The notes under the pieces are model-generated. The model worked only from the letters and a program-made list of their open reading frames with translations. It ran no database searches and was not told the origin of the DNA. From an uncultured Mycobacteriaceae bacterium (GTDB taxonomy: Bacteria; Actinomycetota; Actinomycetes; Mycobacteriales; Mycobacteriaceae): 39,215 nt of DNA. Location: positions 1-39,215 of the forward strand of contig CADEGF010000023.1 of the NCBI GenBank assembly GCA_902826815.1, written 5' to 3'. A program made the position numbers and the translations under genes. This document shows, in pieces, positions 307-14,289 of this stretch (within the stretch, counting starts at the first letter, position 1; the number at the start of each line of letters is the position of its first letter).

Positions 307-336
307 GTCAGCTAGCCAGCTAGCCAGCTAGCTGAC
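307..336 (-). terminator. palindromic hairpin at the end of the ABC operon
   Basis: The arms GTCAGCTAGC (307-316) and GCTAGCTGAC (327-336) are perfectly complementary. The 10-nt middle continues the GCTAGCCA tandem pattern and contains a GCTAGC palindrome. The ATPase stop codon (328-330) lies inside the stem. No T-run follows, so this would be a mycobacterial-style tail-less terminator or a 3' stabilising structure. Confidence 0.5.
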
Positions 337-1071
337 GGCCATTGCCCCCAGGCTCTCGAAGGTCTTGAACACATCGGCCTTCATCAACGCGACCTCGCTG
401 TCGGCGACATCGCGCGGGAACGGCAGCTTGACGTCGATATCGTCGGCGAGACGACCACCCTTGGCGAACACCAGGATTCGGTTGGACAGCTCGACGGCCT
501 CGCCGACGTCATGGGTGACGAAGACGACGGTCTTACCCGTCTCGGCCCAGATCGTGTGCAGCTCCCTGCGCAGCGTGCGGGCCGTGATCGCATCGAGGTG
601 GCTGAACGGTTCGTCCATGAACAGCACATCGGGTTCGGTCGAGAACGCCCGCGCGATACCGACGCGCTGCTGCATACCGCCCGACAGCTCACCGGGGTAC
701 TTGCCGCCCTTGTCGCCGAGCTGCACCATCTCGAGATAGTGCTGGCAGCGGTCGCGCGTCTCCTGATTGCGCTCCTTCTGCACGAACAGCATGTTGTCCA
801 TGACTGATCGCCACGGCAGCAGCCGCGCCGCCTGGAACACGTAGCCGGCCCGCGCCGCCTTGCCGTCCTGGGTGATGCTCACCCTGCCGCTGCTCGGCAC
901 GTCGATGCCGGACAGGATGTTCAGCAGCGTCGACTTGCCGCAGCCCGACGGGCCGACGACGGAGACGAACGAGTGCCCGCTGATGCTCAGGTTCACGTTC
1001 TCCAGCGCGACGACCTTGTCGGCACCCAGACCGAATTCCTTGTGCAGGTTGTTAATTGTGATGTCAGCCAT
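328..1071 (-). CDS. ABC transporter ATP-binding protein, NitT/TauT (SsuB/TauB) type
   Basis: 247-aa nucleotide-binding subunit of an importer, expected on the cytoplasmic face with the two permeases encoded just upstream. Walker A GPSGCGKST is at 40-48, the Q-loop Gln at 80, the signature LSGGMQQR at 129-136, Walker B VLFMDEPF at 149-156, and the switch His in FVTHD at 187. All catalytic elements are intact. GGGAGA lies about 10 nt before the ATG at 1071. It is the last gene of a four-gene leftward operon (binding protein, permease, permease, ATPase), 15 bp after the preceding permease. Known relatives of this subclass import sulfonates, nitrate, aromatic acids or pyrimidine precursors; the substrate here cannot be read from the sequence. 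Confidence 0.93.
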   Translation of the reverse strand: MADITINNLHKEFGLGADKVVALENVNLSISGHSFVSVVGPSGCGKSTLLNILSGIDVPSSGRVSITQDGKAARAGYVFQAARLLPWRSVMDNMLFVQKERNQETRDRCQHYLEMVQLGDKGGKYPGELSGGMQQRVGIARAFSTEPDVLFMDEPFSHLDAITARTLRRELHTIWAETGKTVVFVTHDVGEAVELSNRILVFAKGGRLADDIDVKLPFPRDVADSEVALMKADVFKTFESLGAMAVS

Positions 1072-1086
1072 GGAAGTTTCTCTCCC

Positions 1087-2082
1087 TCAGTCCTTGGGTG
1101 GTTCTTCTAGCTCGTCTTCGACGCTCTGCGGGCGTCCCGTTGTCACCATCGTGATGCTGCCGAGCGCTGCGCCGGTTGCCGTCGATGCCGCGGCGGCGGC
1201 ACCGATGGAGGCCTTCGCCGGGGCGTCGAACTGCTGCTCGACCACCTCGACGTCATCGAGGGACGGCCGCCACTTGAACAGTCGCTTCGACAGCTGGTCG
1301 AACATGAACTTCTCGAATACCAGCGCGAAGATCACGAAGAACAGCGCATAACCGATGACGCCGTAGGCGCGGTGCGCGTCGTACCAGAACTTGATCGTCC
1401 AGCCCGCGCCGTCCTGGCCGCCGAACACCTCGGCGACGACCAGGCCCTTCCACCCCAGGGCGAAGCAGTACCGCGCCGCCGCGAACAGGAACGGCAACAG
1501 CGACGGAATCAGCACCTGCCGGATGACCCGCTGCCGAGGCACATCGAAGGCCCGCGCCATGTCGAACAGATCGGCGGGCGTGTTCCTCACGCCCTCGCGG
1601 ACGTTCATGATCACGAACGGAATGCCGGTCAGTACCACGGTGATGATCGGGCCGGTGTCGCCGAACCCGAAGGCCAGGCTACAGAACAGTGCCCACGCCA
1701 GGTTCGGCATGGCGAGGATCGCCACGACCCAGTCATTGAAGAAGGCGTCGACGGCCTTGGACAGACCCATCGCGAGGCCGATGATGGTGCCGAGGATCAT
1801 CGCGATGGCCATGCCGATGGCCAACCGCTGCAACGAGATACCGAACGTCACGTACATGTTGTGCGGGGCCAGTGTGTGGCCGGTGATCTCGTCCCACATG
1901 AAGTTGAGCACCTGCCACGGCGTCGGCAGCACGTCGACCGCGAACGGCCAGATGGTGGTCACCAGCTTGATCCCCACCAGCCAGATCACCAGGCAGACAA
2001 CAGGGAACAGCAGCCTGCCGGTCAGCGAACTGCGTGTCAGCCACCGCCATGCGCGGCCCGGTGTCATCGTCGGGGTGCTCAT
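1087..2082 (-). CDS. ABC transporter permease (BPD_transp_1, NitT/TauT type)
   Basis: 331-aa inner-membrane permease with about six hydrophobic segments. The cytoplasmic EAA-like coupling loop lies around residues 160-200 (NTPADLFDMARAFDVPRQR). It is longer than the usual ~260-280 aa because of a C-terminal tail of ~45 residues rich in Ala/Thr/Glu with no membrane segment; the tail's role is unknown. The ATG start overlaps the stop of the upstream permease by 4 bp (ATGA, 2079-2082), which indicates translational coupling and a heterodimeric permease pair. Confidence 0.92.
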   Translation of the reverse strand: MSTPTMTPGRAWRWLTRSSLTGRLLFPVVCLVIWLVGIKLVTTIWPFAVDVLPTPWQVLNFMWDEITGHTLAPHNMYVTFGISLQRLAIGMAIAMILGTIIGLAMGLSKAVDAFFNDWVVAILAMPNLAWALFCSLAFGFGDTGPIITVVLTGIPFVIMNVREGVRNTPADLFDMARAFDVPRQRVIRQVLIPSLLPFLFAAARYCFALGWKGLVVAEVFGGQDGAGWTIKFWYDAHRAYGVIGYALFFVIFALVFEKFMFDQLSKRLFKWRPSLDDVEVVEQQFDAPAKASIGAAAAASTATGAALGSITMVTTGRPQSVEDELEEPPKD

Positions 2083-2918
2083 GACTTCAGCTCCACTCGC
2101 CAGGAGAAGAACCGTCGTTCGATCGTCTCAAGTACGACCTTGTCGAGGAACAGCGCGAGCACGTAGAACGCCAGGATCCAGGTCAGGAACTCGTCGAGTC
2201 GGAATAGCTGTGTCGCCGTTCTCATCTCGAAGCCGATGCCCTTGGACGCGGCGAACACCTCGGTCAGCACCGTGACCTTCCACGCGATGGAGAAGCCGAA
2301 CCGGATACCGGTGAAGATGAACGGCGCGAGGTGCGGCAGCACGATGTGTCGGTTGCGTCGCACCACGCCGACATCGAACGACTTCCCCATGTCGATGAGG
2401 TCCTTGGGCAGCGACTTGATGCCTTCGGACACATTGACCGTGATGAGCGCAAAGGTCGTCAACACAATCGCCAGAATCGGACCCGCATAGCGGTTGCCGA
2501 AGATGATGGCGGTGATGAGCGCCCAGATCAGGCCCGGCGTCGTCACCCCGATCGTCACCGCGTCGCGGAAGAACCCGTTCAGGAATCGGTTCTGCATCAG
2601 CACGCCGATCCCGATGCCGAGGAAGAACGCGATTGTGAACCCGACTGCGATGCGGGCAAGCGTCGTGCCGAAGGCGCCCGGCACCTCACCGGTCGCCCAC
2701 AGCTTTCCGAAGGTTTCGAAGACGGTCGACGGGCCCGGCAGCAGACGCTCGTCCATGACCCTGCCGGAGGCGAGCTCCCAGATACCAAGGAAGAAGACAT
2801 AGCCGGCGATTCGCCAGCCCCACCTCGTTATGCGATTTTTACGCTTGGTCGCACGTACGAGGTCTTCCTCGCTTGTGCGCTTCTCGGTCACCGGCGGTGA
2901 CTCCAAGGTCGTCGACAC
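2079..2918 (-). CDS. ABC transporter permease (BPD_transp_1, NitT/TauT type)
   Basis: 279-aa permease, the partner of the protein encoded at 1087-2082. It has a charged N-terminus of about 30 residues, then a membrane segment (around 34-52), more hydrophobic helices, and a coupling loop near residues 165-190 (SLPKDLIDMGKSFDVG). The start is GTG at 2918, with GAAGGGA a few bases upstream. It follows the binding-protein gene after a 58-bp gap that contains a very stable hairpin. Confidence 0.92.
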   Translation of the reverse strand: MSTTLESPPVTEKRTSEEDLVRATKRKNRITRWGWRIAGYVFFLGIWELASGRVMDERLLPGPSTVFETFGKLWATGEVPGAFGTTLARIAVGFTIAFFLGIGIGVLMQNRFLNGFFRDAVTIGVTTPGLIWALITAIIFGNRYAGPILAIVLTTFALITVNVSEGIKSLPKDLIDMGKSFDVGVVRRNRHIVLPHLAPFIFTGIRFGFSIAWKVTVLTEVFAASKGIGFEMRTATQLFRLDEFLTWILAFYVLALFLDKVVLETIERRFFSWRVELKS

Positions 2919-2942
2919 AACATCCCTTCATCTCTTGGTTGC

Positions 2943-2969
2943 GCCGGGGCCGGCATCGCCGACCCCGGC
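2943..2969 (-). other. strong intercistronic hairpin between binding protein and permease genes
   Basis: Two 12-nt arms, 2943-2954 and 2958-2969, separated by 3 nt, pair completely in the leftward RNA, with one G·U pair and otherwise nearly all G·C. No U-tract follows. Hairpins at this place in importer operons are known to protect the binding-protein message and lower downstream permease expression; that role here is inferred. Confidence 0.7.
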
Positions 2970-2976
2970 CAGGTGA

Positions 2977-4047
2977 TCACTGGGGGTTGATGGCTTCGAA
3001 CCGAGGTGTCGGCGCATCCGGTGCGAGGTAGTTCGCGTTGTCGGGGTTGAGCTTCTTCTGCAGCTCCCAGATCTGCGTCTCGTTGTCGATCCAGTCCTTG
3101 TCCAGCGCGATCTTGTCGGCGAACCAGTCGTTGTCGCCGGAGACGAAGTCGATCATGTAGTTGACGTCCTCTTCGGACTCGACCGAGAAGTGCTGCGGGT
3201 ACTTGCGCACCGTTTCGGCCTTCTGCTCTTTCCACATGTCGACGCCGGTCTGCCACAGCTCGATGAACTTCGCAGCGAGATCCTTGTGCGCGTCGTACCA
3301 CTTCTCGGTGGCTACGAAGTTATTGCCCGACACGTGCAGCTTGCCGTCGCTGTTCGGCGCAAACTCCTTGTACAGCTGGAACGGCAGCTTGCCGTCGTAC
3401 ATGATCTCCAGCTCACCCTTGCGCAGCTGCGGGATGGCGGCCTCGGGGATGACGGCAGCGGCCTCGCAGTCACCGCGCAGCAGGTTCGTCGGGTTGACGA
3501 AGTGGTCGTTGACCACGAGGTCGAAGTCGCCGCCACCCACGCGGTAGTCGAGGCCGTGCATCTCGTTGGCCAGAATCGTCCAGAACGCAGTGTTCGACGT
3601 CGGCCCGGACACGCAGATCTTGCTGCCCTTCGGGATGTCGGCGAGCGTCTTGTACGGATCACCTGCCCGCTTCAGCATCGGAACGCGCTGGTAGTTGTAC
3701 TTGCCGAAGGTCACCGTCTTGATGCCGGTCTCGGCCTCGAGCACCGGCGTCTCCTGGGTGGCCATCGAGACGATGTCGCCGTGACCACCGGCGAAGTAGG
3801 TGAACTCGTCCCACGTCGAGCTCGTCTCGATCTTGACGTTGTTCTCCTCCTCCCATTTGGCCGTGGTGCCTGAATCTTTCAGCAGGTCCCACACCGGGTC
3901 CGGCGCGAACGCGAACTTGATGACCTGCGCATCGCCCTCGGCGCCTTGCTGATCACCGCCAGATCCCCCACCTCCGCTACAACCCGCAACAACCGCAAGC
4001 GCCGAGACCGCAGCCGCGGCGACGCGTATTGCCCTTTTGACCTTCAC
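2977..4047 (-). CDS. ABC transporter substrate-binding lipoprotein (NMT1/THI5-like)
   Basis: 356-aa exported solute-binding protein. The frame is open up to 4212, but the start is GTG at 4047: GAGGAGGG lies just upstream, and the product then begins with a Lys/Arg n-region, a hydrophobic stretch and the lipobox VAGC with Cys at residue 23, followed by a Gly/Ser linker. The mature part has the two-lobed NMT1/SsuA-like pattern (DPVWDLLKDSG near the N-terminus, then GSKICVSGPTSN, then NPTNLLRGDCEAA). It is first gene of the importer operon and divergent from the LLM oxidoreductase gene, so transporter and enzymes are probably co-regulated. The ligand is unknown. Confidence 0.9.
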   Translation of the reverse strand: MKVKRAIRVAAAAVSALAVVAGCSGGGGSGGDQQGAEGDAQVIKFAFAPDPVWDLLKDSGTTAKWEEENNVKIETSSTWDEFTYFAGGHGDIVSMATQETPVLEAETGIKTVTFGKYNYQRVPMLKRAGDPYKTLADIPKGSKICVSGPTSNTAFWTILANEMHGLDYRVGGGDFDLVVNDHFVNPTNLLRGDCEAAAVIPEAAIPQLRKGELEIMYDGKLPFQLYKEFAPNSDGKLHVSGNNFVATEKWYDAHKDLAAKFIELWQTGVDMWKEQKAETVRKYPQHFSVESEEDVNYMIDFVSGDNDWFADKIALDKDWIDNETQIWELQKKLNPDNANYLAPDAPTPRFEAINPQ

Positions 4048-4296
4048 GATGACCCTCCTCGGTGAGCGCCCCACCAACTGGATGGAAGCCGACTGTGATG
4101 CTTGCCACTGCTGAGTACAGTGCCACCACGCCCGACGTCCTATGTCGGCCCCCGTGAATTTCGATCGCGAAGGGTGTCGCGCCCTGTGACGCCTCCCGTC
4201 GCCGCCGGCCACGGTGACGAATCGCGTGATCGAAACGGCCGTGAATTCTCGGCCGACGCCACTGACCGGTGGATCTTTGCGGCATTGACTGACTCA
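4048..4296. promoter_or_regulatory. divergent control region, importer versus LLM operon
   Basis: 249 bp with no gene separates the divergent starts at 4047 and 4297. At its right edge a 7-bp inverted repeat, GCATTGA-N5-TCAATGC (4282-4300), overlaps the LLM start codon. This position suits a repressor operator. No clear -35/-10 pair was recognised. Confidence 0.45.
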
Positions 4297-5385
4297 ATGC
4301 GACTCGGCTATTTCTCCATGCCCCTGCACCCCGCCGGCCGGAACTGGTCGGAGACGCTTCGCGAGGACCGGGAGGCGGTGCTGCTCGCCGACCGTCTCGG
4401 GTTCTACGACGCGTTCATCGGCGAACACCTCACCGACCGGCACGAGAACATCACCAACAGCCTGGTGTTTTTGGCGACGCTGATCTCGGAGACCGACCAG
4501 ATCAAGCTCGGCACCGGCACCACGAACCTCTCGCAGCAACACCCCGTGCTCGTCGCGGCGAACTCCGCGATGTTCGACCACCTCGCCGACGGCCGCTTCA
4601 TCCTCGGCATCAGCCCGGGCGCGCTGCCGTCGGACGCCGAGGCGCTCGGCATCCTCGACCAGGACCGCAACGAGATGTTCGCCGAAGCGATCGACGTCAT
4701 CACCGCCATCTGGGAGGGCGAGCCCCCGTATTCGCTCGTGCGCCAGGGCGGGCGGTTCAACGTCACCACCGAAAAGACACTCGACCTCGAACTCGGCGTC
4801 GGCATCCTGCCCAAACCGTTGCAGCAACCGCGCCCCGAAATCGTCGGCACCGTCGTCGCCCCCTTCTCCAAGGGCGTCATCGCGATGGGTACCCGCAACT
4901 TCCATCCGTTGTCAGCCAACTTCCTTCTGCCGCAATGGGTTGCGACGCACTGGCCCAACTACGTCCAGGGCAAGGAGTCGGTGGGCGAAACCGCGACCAC
5001 CGACGACTGGCGAGTGGCCCGCACGGTGTTCGTCAACGACGACGCCGCTGTCGCCGAGGCGTACGGCCGCACCGATGCGCGCAGCCCGTACCGGTTCTAC
5101 TACGACAAGATGCTGACCAAGATGCGCAAGATCGGCCGCCTCGAGCTGTTCAAGACAAGCCGCGAACAACCCGACGACGAGGTGACCCTCGACAGCGTCG
5201 TCGACGAACTGGTCATCACGGGCACCCCGGATTCCGTCGCCGACCAGCTGCTGGCCTTCCGCGAGCAGACCGGCGACTTCGGTGAGCTGGTGTACGCGGG
5301 GCTGGACTGGGTGGACCCCGACCTGGCGCGGCGGTCCATGGAGCTGATGGCCCAAGAGGTCATGCCCCGGGTCGATGCCGGCTGA
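4297..5385 (+). CDS. LLM-class flavin-dependent oxidoreductase (luciferase-like monooxygenase)
   Basis: 362-aa TIM-barrel enzyme of the bacterial luciferase family, predicted to hydroxylate or cleave a small organic substrate with O2 and reduced flavin (or F420). The frame is open from 4102, but family members start at MRLGYFSMPLHP, so the ATG at 4297 is chosen. Typical features are the EHLTDRHENITNSL segment near residue 45, the GTGTTNLSQQHP segment near 70, and HLADGRFILGISPGALPSD around 90-110. The closest family I can name is the limonene-1,2-monooxygenase-like group; the substrate is not readable. A flavin reductase gene (9178) in the same island could supply FMNH2. The downstream gene overlaps by 11 bp. 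Confidence 0.9.
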   Translation: MRLGYFSMPLHPAGRNWSETLREDREAVLLADRLGFYDAFIGEHLTDRHENITNSLVFLATLISETDQIKLGTGTTNLSQQHPVLVAANSAMFDHLADGRFILGISPGALPSDAEALGILDQDRNEMFAEAIDVITAIWEGEPPYSLVRQGGRFNVTTEKTLDLELGVGILPKPLQQPRPEIVGTVVAPFSKGVIAMGTRNFHPLSANFLLPQWVATHWPNYVQGKESVGETATTDDWRVARTVFVNDDAAVAEAYGRTDARSPYRFYYDKMLTKMRKIGRLELFKTSREQPDDEVTLDSVVDELVITGTPDSVADQLLAFREQTGDFGELVYAGLDWVDPDLARRSMELMAQEVMPRVDAG

Positions 5386-5947
5386 ACTGGCCACCGGCGC
5401 CGACCGGTTACCGCTTCCGTCGACGCTGTCGGCGGACCAGCAGTACGCGATGGACAAGGTCGCTTCGGGCCCGCGCGGTGGGCTGATCGCGCCGTTCGTG
5501 CCGCTGCTGCGGGCCCCGGAGCTGATGACCCGGCTGCAACTGGTCGGCGAGTACCTTCGCTTCGGCTCTGGGCTCCCGCCGCACCTGACCGAGCTGGTGA
5601 TCCTGGTGATCGCGCGACGCTGGGATCAGGACTACGAGTGGGGCCACCACGTCCCGCTCGCCCGCGCGGCAGGCCTCGACGAGGACGTCATCGCCGCTGT
5701 GCGCGACGGCGGAACGTTCACCGGCCCCGACGACGTCCGCGCGGTGTGGCGACTGGTCAGCGAGCTCGAGTACCGCCGCGGCGTCAGCGATTCCACGTTT
5801 GACACCGCACTGGACGCCGTCGGCGACGACGGTGTCGTCGAGGTGATCGCGGCGGCCGGCTACTACACCACGCTGGCGATGACCATGAACGCCGCCCGCA
5901 CACCGGTGCCGGACGACTACGAGCGACTGCCTGCAAGGGGATCATGA
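5375..5947 (+). CDS. carboxymuconolactone decarboxylase (CMD) family protein
   Basis: 190-aa all-helical protein. The core around residues 69-101 (PPHLTELVILVIARRWDQDYEWGHH..LARAAGL) matches CMD/AhpD-like folds, with Glu88 and His91/92 at the conserved E..H position. The redox CxxC of AhpD is absent, so it belongs with the gamma-carboxymuconolactone-type branch rather than the peroxidase-partner branch. Its start lies inside the end of the LLM gene and its end overlaps the hydrolase start by 4 bp (ATGA), so the three genes are translationally coupled. An isomerase/decarboxylase step on the oxygenated intermediate is the inferred role. Confidence 0.86.
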   Translation: MPAELATGADRLPLPSTLSADQQYAMDKVASGPRGGLIAPFVPLLRAPELMTRLQLVGEYLRFGSGLPPHLTELVILVIARRWDQDYEWGHHVPLARAAGLDEDVIAAVRDGGTFTGPDDVRAVWRLVSELEYRRGVSDSTFDTALDAVGDDGVVEVIAAAGYYTTLAMTMNAARTPVPDDYERLPARGS

Positions 5948-6666
5948 GCGCACCGATTGTCTTCCTTCACCCGCTGGGCGCCGACGCCCGCTTCTGGGAT
6001 CCGGTGCGCGCCGTGCTCGCTTCCGAGTCGACGGCGGCCTTCGACCTGCCCGGGCACGGCTCGGCCCCGCCGCCACCGAAGGGTGCGGGAATCGACGCCT
6101 ACAGCGCACCCGTGGCGCTGCGGATCGCCGCGTTGGGCGAGCCCGCGCACCTCGTGGGCATGTCGCTCGGCGGCTTGGTGGCCCAGCATCTCGGCGCGGT
6201 GCACCCGGACCTGGTCGCCTCTGTCGTGCTGGCCGACACCGTGCCGGTGTACCCCGAGCCCATGCGTCAGATGTGGCGAGACCGGGCGCAGACGGCCAGG
6301 GAGGGCGCACTGGCCTCGCTCGTCGAGCCGATGGTCGAGATGTGGTTCACCGCCGAATTGGCCGAGCGCAACGACCAGCGGGTGGAACAGGCGCGGCGCA
6401 CCTTCGCGGCCACCGATCCCGAAGGCTATGCGCGCACCTGTGAGGTGTTGGCTGATGTCGATCTCCGGGAAGGCGTTGCCACGCTCACGGTGCCCGCGAC
6501 CGTGGTCTGCGGGGACGACGATGCCCCAGCGTTCCGCGACGCAGCGCAGTGGCTGGCCGATGCGACCGGCGGATCGGTCCAGTGGCTACCCGGCCGTCAC
6601 GCCTGCCCCGTGGAGAGCCCCGAGCGGTTCGCCGGGCTGGTGGCGGCTACGACGGCGACGGTGTAG
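5944..6666 (+). CDS. alpha/beta hydrolase (3-oxoadipate enol-lactonase-like)
   Basis: 240-aa alpha/beta-hydrolase. The oxyanion region HPLG is at 9-12, the nucleophile elbow GMSLGG at 72-77 (Ser74), the acid Asp in the VVCGDDD strand at 188-193 and the base His219 in PGRHACP, so the triad is complete. Size and motifs resemble PcaD. Pairing with a CMD-type protein directly upstream recalls the beta-ketoadipate PcaD/PcaC pair, which are sometimes fused, so lactone or ester hydrolysis downstream of oxygenation is likely. It ends in a 20-bp convergent overlap with the regulator gene. Confidence 0.88.
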   Translation: MSAPIVFLHPLGADARFWDPVRAVLASESTAAFDLPGHGSAPPPPKGAGIDAYSAPVALRIAALGEPAHLVGMSLGGLVAQHLGAVHPDLVASVVLADTVPVYPEPMRQMWRDRAQTAREGALASLVEPMVEMWFTAELAERNDQRVEQARRTFAATDPEGYARTCEVLADVDLREGVATLTVPATVVCGDDDAPAFRDAAQWLADATGGSVQWLPGRHACPVESPERFAGLVAATTATV

Positions 6667-7972
6667 GCGGCGTCTCCTCGATTCCTGACAGCAGCCGGAT
6701 CAGGCGGGCCGCGACCTGAAGCTCGGTGCGGCGCTCGTTGAGCGTGTGGCCGAGCAGTTCCTCGGCCTTGTGCAGGCGGTTGCGGACGGTGTGCTCGTGC
6801 AGCTGCAGATGCTCGGCGGCCGCGACATGCGAGCCGAACCGAAACGACGCCTCCAGCGTCTCGCGCAGCCTCGACGCCTCGACCGTGTCGCCCGCCAGCG
6901 GACCGAGTTCGCGCTCGACGAACTGCCGCGCCTGTTCGGGATCACGCATGAGCAGGATCTCGAGGCCGACATCGCTGTGGTGCACCACCGACGGCGCACC
7001 GGGCCGATCCCACGCCGCGCGGATCCGTTCGGCGTCCACCGCCTCGGCCAGCGTGGTGCGGAACCCGTCGATTCCGCCATGCGCCCCGCCGACCGTCGCG
7101 GGTACGCCCGCCTCGGTCAGCACGTCGTCGAGCGAGTCGAGAACCGACCGCTTCCACTCCCCGATCCGGCCCAGCCACACCACCGTCGAGCTGAGCGTCA
7201 GCGGGTAGACCAGCGAATGCTGGCAGCTGACCGCGTTGCGCAACCCGACCGCCAACTGGGTTGCCGCGCCCTCCGCCACGGTCGGCAGCAGGACCGCGAT
7301 GTGGCGGCTCGCCAGGTCATAGGTAAGGATCGCGGCGTCCGAGCCGGACAGCACTCCGCTTTCGTCGCGCAGGATGTCCTTGATAAGACTGCGACGCATA
7401 TGAGCCCGAGACCTGTTGAGCGCCTCGTAATCTCGGGTGTAGGTCTCGGCGACCTGGGAGGCGACGAAGTCCTGATAGCCCAGCACCGTCTGGGTCAACA
7501 GCTGCTGGGCCAGCGCCGCCTCGTCACGGTCCACATCCCCGTCTTTGATGGCCCGACGCAGATGCCCGCTCCACGCCTCCCACATCGTGTAGAAGCTGAT
7601 GCGGTACGACCGCTGCATCGATTTCTGTGGAATACGAAGTTGCGCTTGCACTTTCGCGAACGACAACACCGTCTCCAAATAGACGTCCTCCAGCGCGATC
7701 TCGCCGGCGATGACCGACCGCAGGCATCGGGCGTTGGCGCTGGTGCTGGCCGTCAGGTATTCGCGGAATTCGTCGTCGTGCGCCTGGTTCGGGAACGCGA
7801 TCGACAGGCAGCGACCGATGATGACCTCGACGAGGTCGTCGACGTCGAAGTCCCCTGCAAGCGCCTGCACCCACGCAGGCAGCGGCCGATCATCGTGCCA
7901 GAGGTTCAGCGGGGCAGGCATACGCACGTCAGCGGACTCCATGGCGTGACCGTCATCGATGGTCAGTGACAT
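6647..7972 (-). CDS. PucR/CdaR-family transcriptional regulator
   Basis: 441-aa regulator. The C-terminal 55 residues (LRETLEASFRFGSHVAAAEHLQLHEHTVRNRL, then LLGHTLNERR) form the PucR-type HTH_30. The middle (~residues 185-330) resembles the degenerate GGDEF-like region of CdaR proteins. The N-terminal ~170 residues are helical, like the sensory part of actinobacterial PucR regulators. Start ATG at 7972, with GAGGTG about 9 nt upstream. It follows the Gfo/Idh gene on the same strand after 69 bp and is convergent with the hydrolase gene. It is the obvious candidate activator of this island; ligand and operator are unknown. Confidence 0.87.
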   Translation of the reverse strand: MSLTIDDGHAMESADVRMPAPLNLWHDDRPLPAWVQALAGDFDVDDLVEVIIGRCLSIAFPNQAHDDEFREYLTASTSANARCLRSVIAGEIALEDVYLETVLSFAKVQAQLRIPQKSMQRSYRISFYTMWEAWSGHLRRAIKDGDVDRDEAALAQQLLTQTVLGYQDFVASQVAETYTRDYEALNRSRAHMRRSLIKDILRDESGVLSGSDAAILTYDLASRHIAVLLPTVAEGAATQLAVGLRNAVSCQHSLVYPLTLSSTVVWLGRIGEWKRSVLDSLDDVLTEAGVPATVGGAHGGIDGFRTTLAEAVDAERIRAAWDRPGAPSVVHHSDVGLEILLMRDPEQARQFVERELGPLAGDTVEASRLRETLEASFRFGSHVAAAEHLQLHEHTVRNRLHKAEELLGHTLNERRTELQVAARLIRLLSGIEETPPTPSPS

Positions 7973-8041
7973 CGCGATGCACCTCGATCAGATTGTGTGC
8001 GCGATTTTAGTCCGACGCCGGATATCCGCTGCGGTCGCACC

Positions 8042-9058
8042 TCACCGGACCGGCTCTACCGAACCGCTGTGCGCTGACCTTGTGATGGCTTCGAAGGTGC
8101 GCGCGTTGGCCACCATCTCCTCCAGCGGAATCGGGTAGGGCACCTCACCTGCGACGGCCTTCGCGAAGGCCTCGATGTTCTCCCGCACCGACCCGTGCGG
8201 CGGGAAGAAGTCCGAGCTGGCGGGCTCGCCACGGACCTGCCGGGTGACGTCCCAGCCCTGCGAATCCTCGGGATGGTTGCGGTCTCGGATCTCCACCCAC
8301 CCCTCCGAACCCAATACGGTGATCCGGCCGACGAACGGGGTCGCCAGAATCGCCGTGATCAGCGCGGTCTGGCCTTTCTCGAACGCCAGCGTGATCGCAA
8401 GGGTGTCGCCGTTGGCGAAGCTGGTCGCCTGCGTCGAGAGCCTCGCCCACACCTCTGTCGGGCGGCCAAAGATGCCGATCGCCAAGTCGACGAGGTGGAT
8501 GCCGGTGGCCGACAACGGCCCGACGGGCGCCTCGACGGCGGACAGTCGCCAGTTGTCGGCGGGCAGATCGAGGAACTTGTCCTGGCTGAAGTTGCCCTCG
8601 AAGACCAGCGGGGTGCCCAGCTTCCCGTCCATGATGGCGCGGCGCAGTTCGACGACGGCGGGCTCGAAACGCCGTTCGTGTCCGATGCCCAGCTGCAGTC
8701 CTGCGGCGGTGATCGCATCGACGGCGCGCTGGGCGTCCTCACCGGAGGCGCTGAGCGGCTTCTCACAGAACACGTGTTTGCCGTGTGCCGCCGCGGCGAT
8801 GATCTGCTCGGTGTGGAATTTGTGTGGCGTGCAGAGGATCACGGCATCGACTGCGTCGTCGGCCAGTACGGCGTCGATGTCGGGGTAGACGTTTACCAGC
8901 GAGCCGGCGATCGCCTCGCGCGCGGCAGGGTCTACGTCGACACCCGCGACGATCTGCACGTGTTCGTTGCCGTCAAGATCGGCAACGATCTTGCGGCCCC
9001 ACCACCCCAGTCCAACGACGGCTGCATTGATCACACCGACAGTCAATTGCCAGCGCAC
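8042..9058 (-). CDS. Gfo/Idh/MocA family oxidoreductase
   Basis: Up to 338 aa. The N-terminal Rossmann domain begins AAVVGLGWWGRK, and the CEKPLS motif carries the conserved EKP lysine; the C-terminal alpha/beta domain (GHERRFEPAVVELRRAI onward) is of the GFO_IDH_MocA_C type. The family reduces or oxidises sugars, inositols and other polyols with NAD(P). The start is uncertain: GTG at 9058 gives the full frame and GTG at 9034 is closer to the Rossmann strand; neither has a clear ribosome-binding site. It is divergent from the flavin reductase gene. Its substrate here is unknown. Confidence 0.88.
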   Translation of the reverse strand: MRWQLTVGVINAAVVGLGWWGRKIVADLDGNEHVQIVAGVDVDPAAREAIAGSLVNVYPDIDAVLADDAVDAVILCTPHKFHTEQIIAAAAHGKHVFCEKPLSASGEDAQRAVDAITAAGLQLGIGHERRFEPAVVELRRAIMDGKLGTPLVFEGNFSQDKFLDLPADNWRLSAVEAPVGPLSATGIHLVDLAIGIFGRPTEVWARLSTQATSFANGDTLAITLAFEKGQTALITAILATPFVGRITVLGSEGWVEIRDRNHPEDSQGWDVTRQVRGEPASSDFFPPHGSVRENIEAFAKAVAGEVPYPIPLEEMVANARTFEAITRSAHSGSVEPVR

Positions 9059-9177
9059 CGGCGATGCATTGTCTGCGGACGTGAACTTCGCGCCTGTGTG
9101 TGTCGCAATCCGTGAGTGTCTGCACCCCGGTTGTCGACGTTCAATTGACCTACCAACGCAACTACGGGAGATCGGTC
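9059..9177. promoter_or_regulatory. divergent control region, Gfo/Idh versus flavin reductase
   Basis: 119 bp between divergent starts. It contains the palindrome TCAATTGA (9141-9148), and a related GTCAATTGC lies just inside the leftward gene near 9042-9050. Both share the half-site TCAAT with the inverted repeat in front of the LLM gene (4294-4300). A common regulator for the island is possible, but the motif is short. Confidence 0.35.
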
Positions 9178-10326
9178 ATGACACAGGACTACGTGCACAC
9201 CGCTGAGACGGTCGACACGGACCTGTTCCGGCACGTGGTCGGCCACCTGGCCAGTGGTGTAACCGTCGTGACAACCAGAGACGACGGCCGCGACCACGGT
9301 ATGACCGCAAGCTCGGTGACGTCCCTTTCGATGGACCCGCCGATGATGCTGGCGTGCGTGAACAACGCGGTGCCGACCGCGGCGGCGATCGAGCGCAGTG
9401 GCCGGTTCACGGTGAATGTGCTCGGCCGGACGCACGGCGACCTGGCCTACCAGTTCGCCACCCCGCGGCCGGACAAGTTCGAAGGCGTCACCGTCGACCG
9501 TGGGGCCGGCGGCGTCCCGATGCTCGCCGAGGCCATCGCGTCGATCGAGTGCGAAGTGACCGAGAAGGTGGCAGGCGGGACTCATTCGGTGTTCCTCGGC
9601 CATGTCACCGCGGCGACTGCGCGCGAGGGGGATCCGCTGACGTACTTCCGCGGCGGGTTCGGCCGTTTCGAGTTCGAACGCAACGATCGCGCCTACGAGC
9701 GTTCGAGGGACATGGTGCTGAGCCGTGTATTCGCTGCGGGACAGGTGATCACCGTCGACGAGCTCGCCGAGCATCTCGATGGCGACCGGGCGCGCGCCTT
9801 CTACGCGCTGACCCGGCTGTCCGGCGACGGCCTTGTCCGACGCGATCCCGATCTCGGCTACGTCATCACGCCGTTCGACGTGCGCACCTCCGACGACACC
9901 TTCGAGGCCCGGCTCGCCATCGAGTTGGGTGTCATCGATCGCGTTGCTGCTCAGGGGGATCCGGATCTGCTCGCCGATGCCCGACGGCACCTCGACGCGA
10001 TGTCCCGGTATCTGGTCGACGACCATTTCGAGGACTTCCACGCCTACCTTGACGCGAATTACGCCTTCCACGAGGCGATCGTCGCGTTGTCGGGCAACCC
10101 GCTTCTCATCGCGGCCTTCGGCTCGCTTAGCGTGAAGAACGTGATGGCACGCAGCTTCGGCACGACTGCCCAGTCGTCGCACGCATTCCTCGCGGTGCAG
10201 CGCGACCTGCTCGTCGCGCTCGAGAACGGCGACGCCGACGGCGCCCGAACGGCAGCAAAGGCCTACTGCGAACTGGCCAAGGCGCGGGCCCGTCAACTGC
10301 TGGCTCTGACGGGAGGGCAGGTCTGA
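9178..10326 (+). CDS. flavin reductase fused to winged-helix and FCD-like regulatory module
   Basis: 382-aa fusion protein. Residues ~15-172 are an HpaC/NtaB-type flavin reductase (GMTASSVTSLSMDPPMML at 41-58; GDPLTYFRGGFGRF at 151-164). Residues ~176-232 look like a winged helix (DELAEHL, then AFYALTRLSGDGLVRRDP). Residues ~238-380 resemble the FCD ligand domain of GntR regulators (NYAFHEAI..LSGNPLL at 294-310; LLVALENGDADGA at 344-356). The usual FCD metal-binding His before that last helix reads Gln-Arg (341-342) and the terminal His position reads Tyr/Cys (363-364), so metal binding is probably lost. The frame opens at 9100, but ATG 9178 directly precedes the reductase domain. It likely supplies FMNH2 to the LLM enzyme. 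NtaB-like reductases with a C-terminal extension are known in mycobacteria. Confidence 0.85.
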   Translation: MTQDYVHTAETVDTDLFRHVVGHLASGVTVVTTRDDGRDHGMTASSVTSLSMDPPMMLACVNNAVPTAAAIERSGRFTVNVLGRTHGDLAYQFATPRPDKFEGVTVDRGAGGVPMLAEAIASIECEVTEKVAGGTHSVFLGHVTAATAREGDPLTYFRGGFGRFEFERNDRAYERSRDMVLSRVFAAGQVITVDELAEHLDGDRARAFYALTRLSGDGLVRRDPDLGYVITPFDVRTSDDTFEARLAIELGVIDRVAAQGDPDLLADARRHLDAMSRYLVDDHFEDFHAYLDANYAFHEAIVALSGNPLLIAAFGSLSVKNVMARSFGTTAQSSHAFLAVQRDLLVALENGDADGARTAAKAYCELAKARARQLLALTGGQV

Positions 10327-10745
10327 TGGCCGACCGGGTAGGAGTGATCCTGCGGCCCGCGGAGATCCCGGCGCGGGAACGGGGCGGCGGGGCGAGCACG
10401 ATCCCGCTGGTGTCGCAGAAGGTCGGGTCGAAAGACTTCCTCAACGGCATTACCCGATTCGGGCCCGGCGCGGCGATCGCCGAACACTTCCACAACTGCG
10501 ACGAGAGCGTCATGCTGCTGCGCGGCGAGGCAATCGCGCACATCGACGGGGTCGCGCACCGCGTCGGCGTCGGCGACACGTCGTTCATCCCGGCAGGCAT
10601 TCACCACCACTTCGAGAACGCCTCGGCCACCGAGGAGATGCAGATCTTCTGGACCTACGCATCCGTCGACGCGACGCGAACCATCGTCGCCACCGGCGTC
10701 ACGACCCGCATCGACGAGGAGCACGGAACCGCCGTACACACCTGA
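10326..10745 (+). CDS. cupin-domain protein
   Basis: 139-aa single-domain cupin. Motif 1 is GPGAAIAEHFHNCDESVMLLRG with His54, His56 and Glu60 as metal ligands; motif 2 is GDTSFIPAGIHHHFEN with His93-95. The start codon shares one base with the preceding stop (TGATG, 10324-10328), so it is translationally coupled to the flavin reductase fusion. Small cupins like this can be dioxygenases, isomerases or sugar/effector binders; the coupling suggests a role in the same pathway. Confidence 0.88.
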   Translation: MADRVGVILRPAEIPARERGGGASTIPLVSQKVGSKDFLNGITRFGPGAAIAEHFHNCDESVMLLRGEAIAHIDGVAHRVGVGDTSFIPAGIHHHFENASATEEMQIFWTYASVDATRTIVATGVTTRIDEEHGTAVHT

Positions 10746-10796
10746 ACCGTCGGGATTTGAGTGCTTCTACTCAGATACTCGCGCGCAGGTCATGCC

Positions 10797-10808
10797 TAGA
10801 TTTGCGGC
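10797..10808 (+). promoter_or_regulatory. -10 box TAGATT for a leaderless start at 10809
   Basis: TAGATT (10797-10802) fits the mycobacterial TANNNT -10 element and lies 6 nt from ATG 10809, the spacing expected when transcription starts on the A of the start codon. It supports 10809 as the original start of the acyltransferase gene. Confidence 0.55.
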
Positions 10809-10899
10809 ATGAGCACCCACGCTGTGTTTCCCAGCCCGGCTGAGGTCGAGGCGAACACACCCGCCACGCGGGGACCGTGCGATCGACGTCATCCGGATC
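10809..10899 (+). pseudogene. 5' end of the acyltransferase gene, out of frame by one base
   Basis: From ATG 10809 the first frame reads MSTHAVFPSPAEVEANTPAT and then loses sense. The conserved family opening R(D)RAIDVIRIVSLLG continues in the +1 frame, which has a stop at 10810-10812 and no start before GTG 10900. Removing one G from the run GGGG at 10870-10873 joins the two frames perfectly (TRDRAIDVIRIV). This is either a real frameshift or a sequencing error. Confidence 0.72.
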
Positions 10900-12153
10900 G
10901 TGTCGCTGTTGGGCGTCGTCGTCGGACACACGATCATGGCGACGAGCATCATCGAAGACGACGTCTTCATCTGGCGCAACCTGCTCACCGAATCCGTCGT
11001 ATTCCAGGCGCTGACCTGGGTTTTCCAGATCATGCCGCTGTTCTTCTTCGCGGGCGTCGCGGCGAGTGTCGACGGTTGGCATTCCGGCCGGAGCTGGGGC
11101 GACTGGCTGATGCGCCGCTGCACCCGGCTGTATCGGCCGGTGTTCTACTACCTGGCGTTCTGGGTCGCCGCGCTGGCGATTCTGCGCTACTTCCTGCCGG
11201 AGCACGTCTACGAACCGGTCGCAGGCATCTCGATCCAGCTCTTGTGGTTTTTGGGAGCCTACGTCTGCGTCCTGGCCGCAGTCCCACTGCTGGCGCGCAT
11301 CACCTCCACGGGCCGCCTCATCGGCGCCGTCGCGGGCACCTACGCGTTCATCGCGGTCATCGACGCGATCCGAATCAACACCGACGTGCCTGCGGGCGTT
11401 GGCTACCTCAACCTCGTCGCCTGGTTGATCCCCGGCATGCTCGGCGTCGGCTACCGCAGGCGCCTGCTGGCGGGGCGCGCGGCGATGCTGCTCGGCGCCG
11501 CGATGTTCGCCGTGAACCTCATGCTGATGTGGGCGGGCCCGTACGAACTCAGCCTCGTCGGCATCGAGACCCAGCAGCTGAAGAACATGACACCGCCGTC
11601 GCTGTTGCTGGCCGGCCACGCAATCATGATGTGCGCGTTCGCGATTGCCGCAGCGCCTGCGATCGCCCGCTGGGCACAGCGCCCGCGCGTGTGGTGGCTG
11701 ACCGCGATCGGCAACTCCGGCGCGATGACGCTGTACCTGTGGCATATCCCGGCGCTGCTGGGAATGCACCTTGTCTTCGACTACCTCGGCTATCCGCGTT
11801 ACGACGCAGGGAGGCCCGGCTTCGTCGCGCTCAGCCTGCTGCAACTGGTGATCATGGCCTGCCTGGTCGCGGCCGCGTTCGTCGCGCTGCGACCGCTGGA
11901 GAACAACCCGCTTCCGCTGTGGGACGGCGGCCATGTGGCCGCGACGGGTGCACGCAGCGCGGCCGTCGGCGCCCTGCTGTGTGTGGCTGGTGCCGCGACA
12001 CTGGCGTCCGTCGGCTGGGGTCTCAAGGGTCCCGGCCTCTACTGCGTCGCGGTGATGCTGGCGGCGCTGATCGCGGCGAGGTTCCTGGCGAGCGACCGAC
12101 CGGTCACCGCTCAGCGCGTCTGCGCGGCCAGCCTGCCCGCCAGCACGAGGTAG
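10900..12153 (+). CDS. acyltransferase family 3 membrane protein (5' frameshift)
   Basis: 417 aa from GTG 10900, about ten membrane segments. The start of the product (SLLGVVVGHTIMA) contains the catalytic-type His of acyltransferase-3 proteins. The conserved Asp and Arg just upstream (AIDVIR) are encoded at 10879-10896 but in frame only if the GGGG indel is corrected. Family members transfer acetyl, succinyl or other acyl groups to surface sugars or lipids. The last 43 bp overlap the convergent LysE gene. If the frameshift is real the protein lacks its first conserved motif and is probably inactive. Confidence 0.82.
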   Translation: MSLLGVVVGHTIMATSIIEDDVFIWRNLLTESVVFQALTWVFQIMPLFFFAGVAASVDGWHSGRSWGDWLMRRCTRLYRPVFYYLAFWVAALAILRYFLPEHVYEPVAGISIQLLWFLGAYVCVLAAVPLLARITSTGRLIGAVAGTYAFIAVIDAIRINTDVPAGVGYLNLVAWLIPGMLGVGYRRRLLAGRAAMLLGAAMFAVNLMLMWAGPYELSLVGIETQQLKNMTPPSLLLAGHAIMMCAFAIAAAPAIARWAQRPRVWWLTAIGNSGAMTLYLWHIPALLGMHLVFDYLGYPRYDAGRPGFVALSLLQLVIMACLVAAAFVALRPLENNPLPLWDGGHVAATGARSAAVGALLCVAGAATLASVGWGLKGPGLYCVAVMLAALIAARFLASDRPVTAQRVCAASLPASTR

Positions 12154-12722
12154 GTGGCGCCGAAGCTGCGGCGCACCCAGGCCACGACGCGGGGCCGGGT
12201 GAAGACCTTGTTGCGGACCGCGGCGGCGAACACTCCGTAGAGGCTGAACACCGCGAACGTCACCGCCATGAAGATCACGCTCAGGTACGCCATCAGCGGC
12301 ACGGCGCCCGCCCTGTCGGCGGGCACGAACTGGGGCAGGAACGCGAAGAAGAAGATGGTCAGCTTCGGGTTGAGGGTGTTCACCAGAATCCCTGACACGA
12401 TCACCCGCCACGGCGACGGCTTCTCCGGTTCGGCGTCGATCGCGAAGACCGACTTGTCGCGGAACGTCTTCCACGCCAGATACACCAGGTAAGCGACGCC
12501 GAGCCACTTGATGATCGAGAAGGCCACCGCGCTGGCGTGCATGATCGCGGCAAGGCCGGTGACCGCGGCGATCACGTGCGGAACGATCCCGAGCGTGCAG
12601 GCGAACGCCGCGACGATGCTGGCCTGCCAGCCGCGCGATACCCCGGCCGCCAGCGTGTAGAGCACACCCGCGCCGGGAGTGGCCACCACGACGAGGGTGG
12701 TCAGCAGGAACTCCGGAGTCAT
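12111..12722 (-). CDS. LysE/RhtB-family amino-acid exporter
   Basis: 203-aa membrane protein with about six hydrophobic segments and the family opening PEFLLTTLVVVATPGAGVLYTLAAGVSRG (ATPGP-like motif at residues 14-18). The middle has KWLGVAYLVYLAWKTFR, and the second half begins ILVNTLNPKLTIFFFAFLPQF, both typical. Inferred role: export of an amino acid or related metabolite. Its ATG is 15 bp downstream of the small DUF5302-like gene on the same strand, so the two are probably one transcript. Confidence 0.92.
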   Translation of the reverse strand: MTPEFLLTTLVVVATPGAGVLYTLAAGVSRGWQASIVAAFACTLGIVPHVIAAVTGLAAIMHASAVAFSIIKWLGVAYLVYLAWKTFRDKSVFAIDAEPEKPSPWRVIVSGILVNTLNPKLTIFFFAFLPQFVPADRAGAVPLMAYLSVIFMAVTFAVFSLYGVFAAAVRNKVFTRPRVVAWVRRSFGATYLVLAGRLAAQTR

Positions 12723-12737
12723 CCGCTCACGCCTGCC

Positions 12738-12905
12738 CTAGCCGCTCTTGCGACGGAACTCCCGCCGACTTTCCAGGGGTCCGTGCGCCCTGGGCTGCTT
12801 GTTTCCGCCGTCCTTGTGATCGGCTCCGCCGCCGGCGTTCGCCTTCTTCTTCTCCAGCGCCTCCCGGAACTTGCGTTTCGTGTCGTCTTCCGGTGATTCA
12901 GCCAT
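12738..12905 (-). CDS. DUF5302-like small hydrophilic protein
   Basis: 55-aa protein starting MAESPEDDTKRKFREALEKK, with a middle HKDGG motif and ending RREFRRKSG. This is the pattern I associate with the actinobacterial DUF5302 family, whose function is unknown. It is highly charged with no membrane segment; the KRKFREALEKKK stretch should be helical. A TAGGCT -10 box sits 6 nt before the ATG, so the mRNA is probably leaderless. It is transcribed with lysE downstream and lies after the PPOX gene on the same strand. Confidence 0.8.
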   Translation of the reverse strand: MAESPEDDTKRKFREALEKKKANAGGGADHKDGGNKQPRAHGPLESRREFRRKSG

Positions 12906-12911
12906 AGCGGC

Positions 12912-12917
12912 AGCCTA
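12912..12917 (-). promoter_or_regulatory. -10 box TAGGCT (leaderless start of the 55-aa gene)
   Basis: On the minus strand TAGGCT is followed by 6 nt and then ATG at 12905. The same hexamer precedes the PPOX and DoxX genes at equal or near-equal distance. Confidence 0.6.
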
Positions 12918-12953
12918 GCGCGGCGCACCTGGCGTCGTCGCGGCCTTTATCGC

Positions 12954-13409
<456 letters not shown>

Positions 13410-13452
13410 CGTCGGCCGCCTGCGGGGCCGACCCCTATTCGCACGTCGTACC

Positions 13453-13458
13453 TACTAT
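13453..13458 (+). promoter_or_regulatory. -10 box TACTAT (leaderless start at 13465)
   Basis: TACTAT fits TANNNT and is 6 nt before ATG 13465. With the box at 13404-13409 on the other strand it forms a compact divergent promoter pair inside 67 bp. Confidence 0.6.
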
Positions 13459-13464
13459 GACCCC

Positions 13465-14289
13465 ATGGCCCCAATCAGCGGCGACACCCTGGAAGGCATC
13501 TCGGCAACCACGCTGTGGACACTGCACAACCGCGGCACCGAGGCCAACCGGTCCGACGGCGTCATCAAGGATCCGTGGGCCGTCTCGCTGTTCGACTCGA
13601 TCTCCTACGACTACCTCAAGTTCGGCAAGCCCGACCAGTCGCACGGCCTGCGGGCAGTGGCCTTCGACGCGGTGATGCGGGAATACCTCGCGTCGCACCC
13701 GAAGGCGTCGGTAGTGGCCCTCGCAGAGGGCCTGCAGACCAGCTTCTGGCGACTGCACGCCGCGGACCTCGCCGACGAATTGACTTGGTACTCCATCGAC
13801 CTACCGGCGGTGATGGCGATACGTGCACAGCTGCTCCCGCACGACGACCGCATCGTCGCGCTCGCGCAGTCGGCACTGGACCACAGCTGGATGGACAAGG
13901 TGGACAACGCGCACGGGGTCTTCATCACCGCCGAGGGCCTGCTCATGTACCTGCAACCCGACGATGCGATCGGGCTGATCCGCGAATGCGCCGCCCGGTT
14001 TCCCGGCGGCCGGATCATGTTCGACAACATCCCGCCGTGGTTCAGCCGCCGAACGTTGAAGGGCTTCAAGCTCTCTGACCGCTACACCGCACCGCCGATG
14101 CCGTTGGGGATGACATCCGAACAGGGCCTCGCGCTAGCCGACACAATGCCCGGTGTGCGCGCCGCGCATGACATCACGTTGCCTGCGGGTCGCGGCTTGT
14201 TCAAGGTCGCCGCGTGGCCGGCGCTGGACCGGATCGGGTTTCTGCGCCGCATGCGGCCCAGCATCACGCTGCTGGAGTTCGGGCAGTGA
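13465..14289 (+). CDS. LCM-family class I SAM-dependent methyltransferase
   Basis: 274-aa enzyme of the leucine-carboxyl-methyltransferase/TcmP-like fold. The SAM-binding segment [17 protein letters not shown] follows strand 1, then DLPAVMAIRAQLLP, then the [19 protein letters not shown] segment of the conserved LMYL motif. The frame is open from 13219, but ATG 13465 fits both the -10 box and the start of its paralogue. It is a tandem paralogue of the 14804 gene (same length, conserved start ISATTLWTLHNRG versus [13 protein letters not shown]). Its stop overlaps the next start (GTGA). It is probably an O-methyltransferase; the substrate is unknown. Confidence 0.9.
   Translation: MAPISGDTLEGISATTLWTLHNRGTEANRSDGVIKDPWAVSLFDSISYDYLKFGKPDQSHGLRAVAFDAVMREYLASHPKASVVALAEGLQTSFWRLHAADLADELTWYSIDLPAVMAIRAQLLPHDDRIVALAQSALDHSWMDKVDNAHGVFITAEGLLMYLQPDDAIGLIRECAARFPGGRIMFDNIPPWFSRRTLKGFKLSDRYTAPPMPLGMTSEQGLALADTMPGVRAAHDITLPAGRGLFKVAAWPALDRIGFLRRMRPSITLLEFGQ

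Follow-up and report, generated by a model that had tools for sequence, protein, structure and literature searches.

Near the left end of a 39,215-nucleotide stretch of DNA from an uncultured Mycobacteriaceae bacterium (contig CADEGF010000023.1; the whole stretch is called the window here) lies a cluster of genes, A to K, arranged around a luciferase-like monooxygenase (LLM), gene E, and a flavin reductase fused to a regulator-type half, gene J. The original prediction proposed that these genes form one catabolic system. In the open reading frame (ORF) list of the window all of the genes it named are intact ORFs at the positions claimed for them, and a Pfam scan of A to K returned the domain types described, save for D, which has no Pfam family. 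It had counted nine enzyme and transport genes with one PucR-type regulator; the count is ten plus one PucR gene. The genes D-C-B-A run on the minus strand and E-F-G on the plus strand, H is convergent with G, I is on the minus strand, and J-K are on the plus strand. ORF ends overlap at B/C, E/F, F/G and J/K, a pattern as in translational coupling. The start of E is best set at 4297 because conservation begins there. For A, the best 25 of 187 NCBIfam matches all fell under their cut-offs; D had no family match in the Pfam or NCBIfam scans and only a weak PDB match to the lipoprotein 4ib2 (expect value 3e-4); F had no NCBIfam family and no PDB match at an expect value of 0.1. H carries a C-terminal HTH_30 domain (42.8 bits) and a GGDEF_2 domain (25.5 bits), both over gathering, and thus has the domains of a PucR-type regulator.

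Table. Genes and candidate operator copies of the cluster in the window.
Feature	Description	Position	Strand	Basis
A	ABC transporter ATPase, nitrate/sulfonate/taurine type	328..1071	-	Pfam ABC_tran 101 bits
B	Permease	1087..2082	-	Pfam BPD_transp_1
C	Permease, overlapping B	2079..2918	-	Pfam BPD_transp_1
D	Putative lipoprotein solute-binding protein, start GTG 4047	2977..4047	-	Lipobox-like AVVAGC
Operator copy 1	TGTC-N6-CGTGAATTTCG, between divergent D and E	4143..4163	+	Exact genome match
Weaker second copy	32 bases past copy 1	4175..4191	+	By eye, without chance estimate
E	LLM monooxygenase, presumably FMNH2-dependent	4297..5385	+	Pfam Bac_luciferase 127 bits
F	CMD-family protein, overlapping E	5375..5947	+	Pfam CMD 36 bits
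G	Alpha/beta hydrolase, PcaD-like, Ser in GMSLGG	5944..6666	+	Pfam Abhydrolase
H	PucR-type regulator	6647..7972	-	Pfam HTH_30 and GGDEF_2
I	Gfo/Idh/MocA oxidoreductase	8042..9058	-	Pfam GFO_IDH_MocA
Operator copy 2	TGTC-N6-CGTGAACTTCG, between divergent I and J	9070..9090	+	Second exact genome match
Weaker second copy	31 bases past copy 2	9101..9118	+	2 mismatches
J	Flavin reductase fused to GntR-type winged helix and FCD ligand domain	9178..10326	+	Pfam
K	Cupin, 1-base overlap with J, peripheral	10326..10745	+	Pfam Cupin_2

A scan of 84,980 species genomes with E, restricted to close relatives, returned 71 loci (L numbers), of which 34 were taken as actinobacterial and 37 were not; L013, titled uncultured bacterium, was placed among the actinobacterial loci by similarity. 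A gene was counted where a match over a set identity covered half of the query. Short and cut loci were kept among the 34, which lowers the counts, and all counts are conditional on E since the loci were sampled through it. At the actinobacterial loci F was present in 32, G in 29, J in 29, H in 25 and I in 20. The recurrence of the gene set in other actinobacteria, which the original prediction had put forward as a check, was therefore observed for F, G, J, H and I in 20 to 32 of 34 loci. A HIBADH-like gene accompanied E in 22 of these loci, an ALDH gene in 12, a cyclase (c12) in 10, D at an identity of at least 60% in seven and FAH in six. The cupin gene K had been included as a member of the system; it was found at two loci. 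Protein divergences correlated, with r between 0.74 and 0.92 calculated without a species-tree control. At the 37 non-actinobacterial loci there was one match to F (38%), three to I (33-54%), eight to G (27-34%) and four to the reductase half of J (34-38%), and none to H or D. Among named organisms, Mycolicibacterium stellerae carries the LLM gene most similar to E (94%). E was rare, occurring in one of 251 genomes of the family (expect value at most 1e-100) and one of 396 of the phylum (at most 1e-90), the genome under study both times. This patchy distribution suggests that E may have spread horizontally.

The limit of the cluster at position 328, as first proposed, did not hold. Six further enzyme genes, encoding two ACMSD-like amidohydrolases, two Gfo/Idh proteins, an Ldh2 protein and a FAH protein, lie at the end of contig C79 of the same genome. 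This end was placed beside the left edge of the window by synteny with relatives, so that the predicted junction is inferred and not read. A 37-base repeat common to positions 205-241 of the window and the end of C79 (L080, first 125 bases) is a likely cause of the contig break. In L001-L005 the corresponding operon consists of Q (amidohydrolase_2), P and O (Gfo/Idh), N (amidohydrolase_2), M (Ldh2) and L (FAH), directed towards the importer; Q falls at or past the left edge of some of these stretches and was identified separately. The C79 genes keep the order of L001, and A is 78-94% identical in L001-L006 and L012. The nearest solved structures of N and Q are those of ACMSD, and the best model for the Ldh2 protein on C79 was L-sulfolactate dehydrogenase, at 248 of the 500 bits needed. 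C79-type genes were also seen in L012 (Plantactinospora), in Acrocarpospora (L082), where O was not called by the gene caller, and in the examined part of the Propionibacteriales metagenome-assembled genome (MAG) L095. Outside Mycolicibacterium, N stands on the strand opposite to its neighbours (L012 2501-3562, L082 9255-10331, L095 6652-6999). The FAH-to-Q genes of Acrocarpospora are on E's contig, about 20 kb off, and CRISPR-Cas genes (Cas3 and CT1975-type by Pfam) interrupt the cluster there (L081, about 7000-14500).

Importer and C79-type operon occurred together. D was found at an identity of at least 75% in eight of 31 genomes searched, and the same eight have FAH at 63% or more; the remaining 23 have D at no more than 53% or none found, and FAH at no more than 55% or none found (the genome of L025 was left out of both searches). 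A distant D-family importer and an N-like amidohydrolase were present on E's contig in the genomes of L007, L021, L023, L062 and L066, which suggests a recurring front end of uptake, oxidation and decarboxylation in carriers of E. The distant importer was also accompanied by a histidinol-dehydrogenase-like protein in the genomes of L007, L021, L062 and L066 but not in that of L023. Such a protein, probably a catabolic paralogue, was seen near a D-family importer or E in L090 (4108-5415), L062, L065, L092, L093, L094 and L097; the two tested scored 454-456 bits with the hisD model.

The aligned D/E and I/J divergent promoter regions share the pattern TGTC-N6-CGTGAAYTTCG. In the 6.87 Mb genome this operator occurs exactly twice, at 4143 and 9070, both in the cluster. 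With two mismatches allowed, 60 genome matches were obtained, compared to 10 for a control pattern. A slightly broader pattern gave 10 exact matches in five relatives, nine of them inside the cluster. All three exact matches in the L005 genome are the D/E, I/J and Q promoters, and the L001 genome has the operator at each of these three units as well, the copy at Q differing by one base. The 20-base operator core is exact between D and E in L001-L005 and between I and J in L001, L003, L004 and L005, with one mismatch in L002. A matrix built from 12 sites in the window and L001-L005, with background drawn from the same loci, detected the operator at p < 0.01 in L006 (D/E) and L012 (D/E and I/J). 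At the E or E/J promoter, p was 0.002-0.005 in L011, L014, L023, L041 and L056 and 0.007 in L024. Upstream of Q, scanned in eight genomes, p was about 0.002 in two, 0.075-0.09 in five and 0.70 in one. H is the putative operator-binding protein. For comparison, a Corynebacterium study describes two 21-bp inverted repeats used by the PucR-type regulator GabR (PMC7652997).

Conserved neighbourhoods, correlated divergence and an operator nearly confined to the cluster support the claim of one catabolic system, and we consider it very probable that the cluster is a single catabolic regulon.

The profile of E gave 3,6-diketocamphane 1,6-monooxygenase as its best PDB match (222 bits, with the next at 102), and the match to diketocamphane monooxygenase is full-length (expect value 5e-24). 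Among solved LLM proteins E is thus most closely related to the diketocamphane monooxygenase group. Glu43-His44 of E is invariant in 51 of 51 aligned rows; in bacterial luciferase a His44 is catalytic. E is presumably an FMNH2-dependent oxygenase, judging from its family, in agreement with the original prediction. That E opens a ring is a tentative assignment, held at somewhat less than an even chance. G scored 155 bits with the enol-lactonase model TIGR02427 (PcaD), whose cut-off of 256 was not reached, and its best PDB match was 3-oxoadipate enol-lactonase 2xua.

J matched Flavin_Reduct (151 bits), FCD (68 bits) and GntR (26.5 bits, just under the cut-off of 27) in Pfam, and its profile positions 171-359 matched TM0439-type GntR-FCD proteins. 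It therefore combines an N-terminal flavin reductase with a C-terminal regulator-type domain, as does the Acinetobacter reductase AbHpaC. The recognition helix of GntR proteins carries the motif VR(E/D)AL with its Arg. This motif is absent from J: the Arg of TM0439 (VRDAL) aligns with Phe208, which is Phe in 27 of 27 orthologues, and the following residue, Tyr209, is likewise Tyr in all 27. Conservation of the recognition helix was nonetheless 0.81, compared to 0.73 for the whole winged helix and 0.71 for the FCD domain, in keeping with a domain retained for a role other than standard DNA reading. The metal ligands of FCD domains are Asp and His. In a gapped pairwise alignment with TM0439, His298 of J is kept (27/27), the TM0439 Asp aligns with Asn294 (27/27) and Asp292 lies two residues earlier (24/27); the other His positions are occupied by Ser326 (27), Gln341 (25) and Tyr363 (27 of 27).

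J-like fusions were found in three of 396 genomes of the phylum at an expect value of at most 1e-70, the genome under study included. One such fusion (41-42%) stands beside an HpaB oxygenase (L111, 6607-9307) in another genome of the phylum, where E was not detected at the threshold applied; the architecture is thus not bound to LLM partners. In genome G654 a J-like fusion has no neighbour readable as informative. Among the best 12 of 17 literature matches, none combined flavin reductase and GntR. According to the AbHpaC report, the C-terminal MarR domain of that enzyme is self-inhibitory until substrate binds (PMC10816480). By analogy J may be gated by substrate, a possibility we rate below evens.

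Clues to the substrate came from related loci, counted as raw occurrences near E without a random-gene baseline. A gene family present in 8 of the 34 actinobacterial loci, tested in L023, had 2,6-dihydroxypyridine hydroxylase 2vou as its best solved relative (expect value 1e-76, next 2e-18). Four of the 34 loci carry allantoinase-like genes (282 of 358 bits) and genes of the asparaginase type; the model scan covered one protein of each kind and one more asparaginase from the L023 contig. Homologues of a Mo-hydroxylase large subunit (34-42%) occurred in seven of all 71 loci; the one in L057 immediately precedes E. A protein resembling PuuE (116 of 425 bits) was likewise found in 7/71, where L057 is the query itself and the L040 match is weak (30%). 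An amidase at 84% identity or more was seen in three loci, query included, and the arylformamidase model matched one of the cyclase-family proteins at 56 of 223 bits. A TRZ/ATZ-like amidohydrolase occurred in three of the 34. In L025 and L027, and also in the alphaproteobacterium L067, amidohydrolases of this kind (subfamily PRK08204) are accompanied by an importer of the ribose type. A nucleoside (BmpA) type was dropped for the importer of L025 and L027, which has Peripla_BP_4, two ABC_tran stretches and BPD_transp_2; its type carries little weight and leaves the odds on the substrate unchanged. No single clue gene is decisive. Because hydroxylase-like, allantoinase-like, asparaginase and Mo-hydroxylase genes occur in related loci, an N-heterocycle is the favoured substrate, at about an even chance or slightly better. 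No matching gene set was found in the literature on trigonelline, homarine, pyrrole-2-carboxylate and hydroxypyridine. The gene set was also not found described in the papers searched, among which coverage of subscription journals was slight.

Of the substrates originally suggested (a small organic acid, a terpenoid-like or an N/S-heterocyclic compound), the N-heterocycle is thus favoured and not proven, and a terpenoid-like ketone keeps some probability, given that E is closest among solved proteins to 3,6-diketocamphane monooxygenase. The finding itself is real and of the two-component flavin monooxygenase kind.

The window would hold the right-hand part of a pathway-specific regulon of about 17 genes, including the six on C79. 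H may sense the substrate or an intermediate and turn on the three promoter regions, upon which D-C-B-A would take up a small, probably charged, N-heterocyclic acid. We infer an order of steps in which the dehydrogenases (Gfo/Idh, Ldh2) and the ACMSD-like decarboxylases N and Q trim side groups, J supplies FMNH2, and E adds oxygen beside a carbonyl or nitrogen of the ring, which opens once hydroxylated. The ring-opened product would then be hydrolysed by G together with F, and Gfo/Idh and FAH proteins would pass the fragments into central metabolism. The GntR/FCD half of J could serve as an on-board sensor, letting the reductase run only with substrate, in the manner of the MarR domain of the Acinetobacter reductase. 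Taken as a whole, this account, in which an imported N-heterocyclic acid is opened by E, fed and gated by J, is our best explanation, and we give it a little under an even chance. A bolder version is doubtful. It would describe a new way of degrading N-heterocyclic acids aerobically: the ring would be opened by a diketocamphane-type LLM instead of a dioxygenase, and a captured former GntR/FCD transcription factor, lacking its DNA-reading residue, would hold the partner flavin reductase back until substrate releases this brake. A shared E-F-G-J core would receive different heterocycles from peripheral modules, namely an importer with decarboxylases of the ACMSD type, an importer of the ribose type with a TRZ/ATZ-like amidohydrolase, or a hydroxylase of the dihydroxypyridine type with a cyclase.

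Several observations weigh against the proposed N-heterocycle regulon. The operator was defined from its own sites. Upstream of Q in the genome under study it scored only p 0.08, and with three mismatches allowed the window holds 10 matches compared to 5.5 expected, which is not significant. No operator was found upstream of H in the window and L001-L005 (p at least 0.19; the lowest elsewhere was 0.02, in L026), and at E and J many other loci, L007-L009, L025-L027 and L066 among them, likewise gave no site at p < 0.01. At 25 of the 37 non-actinobacterial loci E (51-68%) has no match to F, G, H, I or J in the examined stretch, indicating that E can function elsewhere. The hydroxylase-like, Mo-hydroxylase, allantoinase-like, asparaginase and PuuE-like genes all lie outside the window cluster, and in the genome under study the hydroxylase has no close counterpart (best expect value 6e-11; the other nitrogen-ring genes were not searched there). 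The kinship of E with an enzyme of camphor breakdown also counts here. It would agree with a pathway free of ring nitrogen, in which an alicyclic or terpenoid keto-acid is taken up and oxidised by E as a type II Baeyer-Villiger monooxygenase, G opens the lactone, and F and the Gfo/Idh proteins follow. Enol-lactonases are the nearest relatives of G, and a proteobacterial hydrolase from L059 approaches the PcaD cut-off (239 of 256 bits). The C-N hydrolases, the 2,6-dihydroxypyridine-hydroxylase-like protein and the Mo-hydroxylases of related loci argue against such a ketone pathway, and no P450 turned up in the E-F-G-J clusters, where no search was aimed at P450. We consider this pathway unlikely.

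The remaining alternatives concern the importer and the unity of the cluster. Sulfonate scavenging of the Ssu/Tau kind, with import, FMNH2-dependent desulfonation and sulfolactate-type dehydrogenation, would agree with the sulfonate and taurine models matched by the ATPase and permeases and with the best model of the C79 Ldh2 protein. These matches are far under their cut-offs, however, there is no SsuD model in E's best 25 of 28 NCBIfam matches, and sulfonate systems are not known to require decarboxylases of the ACMSD type, CMD proteins or hydrolases like PcaD; such a function is very improbable. The cluster could also consist of two separable modules, a widespread E-F-G-J core and an importer with C79-type operon serving another purpose, sharing a regulator by chance. 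Consistent with this, 27 of the 34 actinobacterial loci lack a close importer in the examined stretch, and one of them, L016, carries it on a different contig. The operator before all three units in the L005 genome, and in that of L001 with its mismatch at Q, speaks against a chance sharing, as do the distant importer and N-like amidohydrolase on E's contig in the five genomes named above, and we regard two modules as improbable. That the genes are chance neighbours without common function has only the patchy distribution (1/251 family genomes) in its favour; the shared operator and conservation over many actinobacterial genera reduce this to a negligible chance.

Relatives of E outside the actinobacteria showed other surroundings. 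In L028, L044 and L069 they lie near genes of housekeeping type (families of UDP-glucose dehydrogenase, CTP synthase and EF-Tu-like GTPase) without the usual partners. A thiamine-diphosphate enzyme is near the LLM gene in L072 (13162-14700) and L045 (13549-15213), from Paracoccus and a Beijerinckiaceae MAG. Glyoxylate carboligase was dropped as its identity: the two proteins match PRK07586 at 730 and 738 bits, and the best 25 of 46 matches include no model for glyoxylate carboligase. The genes found with the LLM in Agrobacterium, Mesorhizobium, Ancylobacter and Phaeobacter (37-43%) are different ones, and these clusters did not enter into the interpretation of the pathway; alignment A2 nonetheless includes the LLM proteins from L074-L077.

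If the proposed regulon is correct, the cluster would be a marker for the breakdown of nitrogen-ring compounds in soil and freshwater actinobacteria, ring-opening LLM chemistry would reach another clade, and a ligand-binding regulator domain would have been reused for the control of a flavin reductase. The operator offers a ready reporter for finding the inducing compound.

The cluster was compared with several known systems. In the Rut pathway the LLM RutA, the flavin reductase RutF and the hydrolase RutD act on a pyrimidine ring. The cluster resembles it in combining LLM monooxygenase, flavin reductase and alpha/beta hydrolase, the nitrogen ring being on the Rut side. Membership was rejected, since G reached 31 of 238.5 bits for RutD and J 84.5 of 254.75 bits for RutF. 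RutA, a pyrimidine monooxygenase according to PMC10696468, is absent from E's best 25 of 28 NCBIfam matches (top 80 bits; any match among the other three would have an expect value above 1e-6). Compared with the known Rut gene content, the window cluster has an extra PucR regulator, ABC importer, CMD protein and Gfo/Idh protein. CMD and PcaD-like genes stand side by side as in the beta-ketoadipate branch (PcaC, PcaD). That branch was rejected on the PcaD and PcaC models, G falling short as above and F having no NCBIfam match, and no ring-cleaving dioxygenase was recognised among the 17 cluster genes. Ssu/Tau membership was rejected because the ATPase scored 174.7 of 395 and 167 of 357 bits for SsuB/TauB and the permeases 67-79 of 342-347 bits for SsuC/TauC; no SsuD was among the matches listed for E. 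In the trigonelline (Tgn) and pyridine (Pyr) pathways the pyridine ring is opened by an LLM-type enzyme. The diketocamphane monooxygenases are E's nearest solved relatives along the full length, and one report describes them as two-component enzymes requiring a separate flavin reductase (PMC5192521). Unlike them, E is not surrounded by camphor genes: its neighbours are an importer and decarboxylases of the ACMSD type, and related loci add C-N hydrolases. AbHpaC, the reductase of Acinetobacter 4-hydroxyphenylacetate hydroxylase (5zc2), shares with J the flavin reductase with a C-terminal regulator-type domain; J differs in having GntR and FCD in place of MarR, and an LLM oxygenase as its partner.

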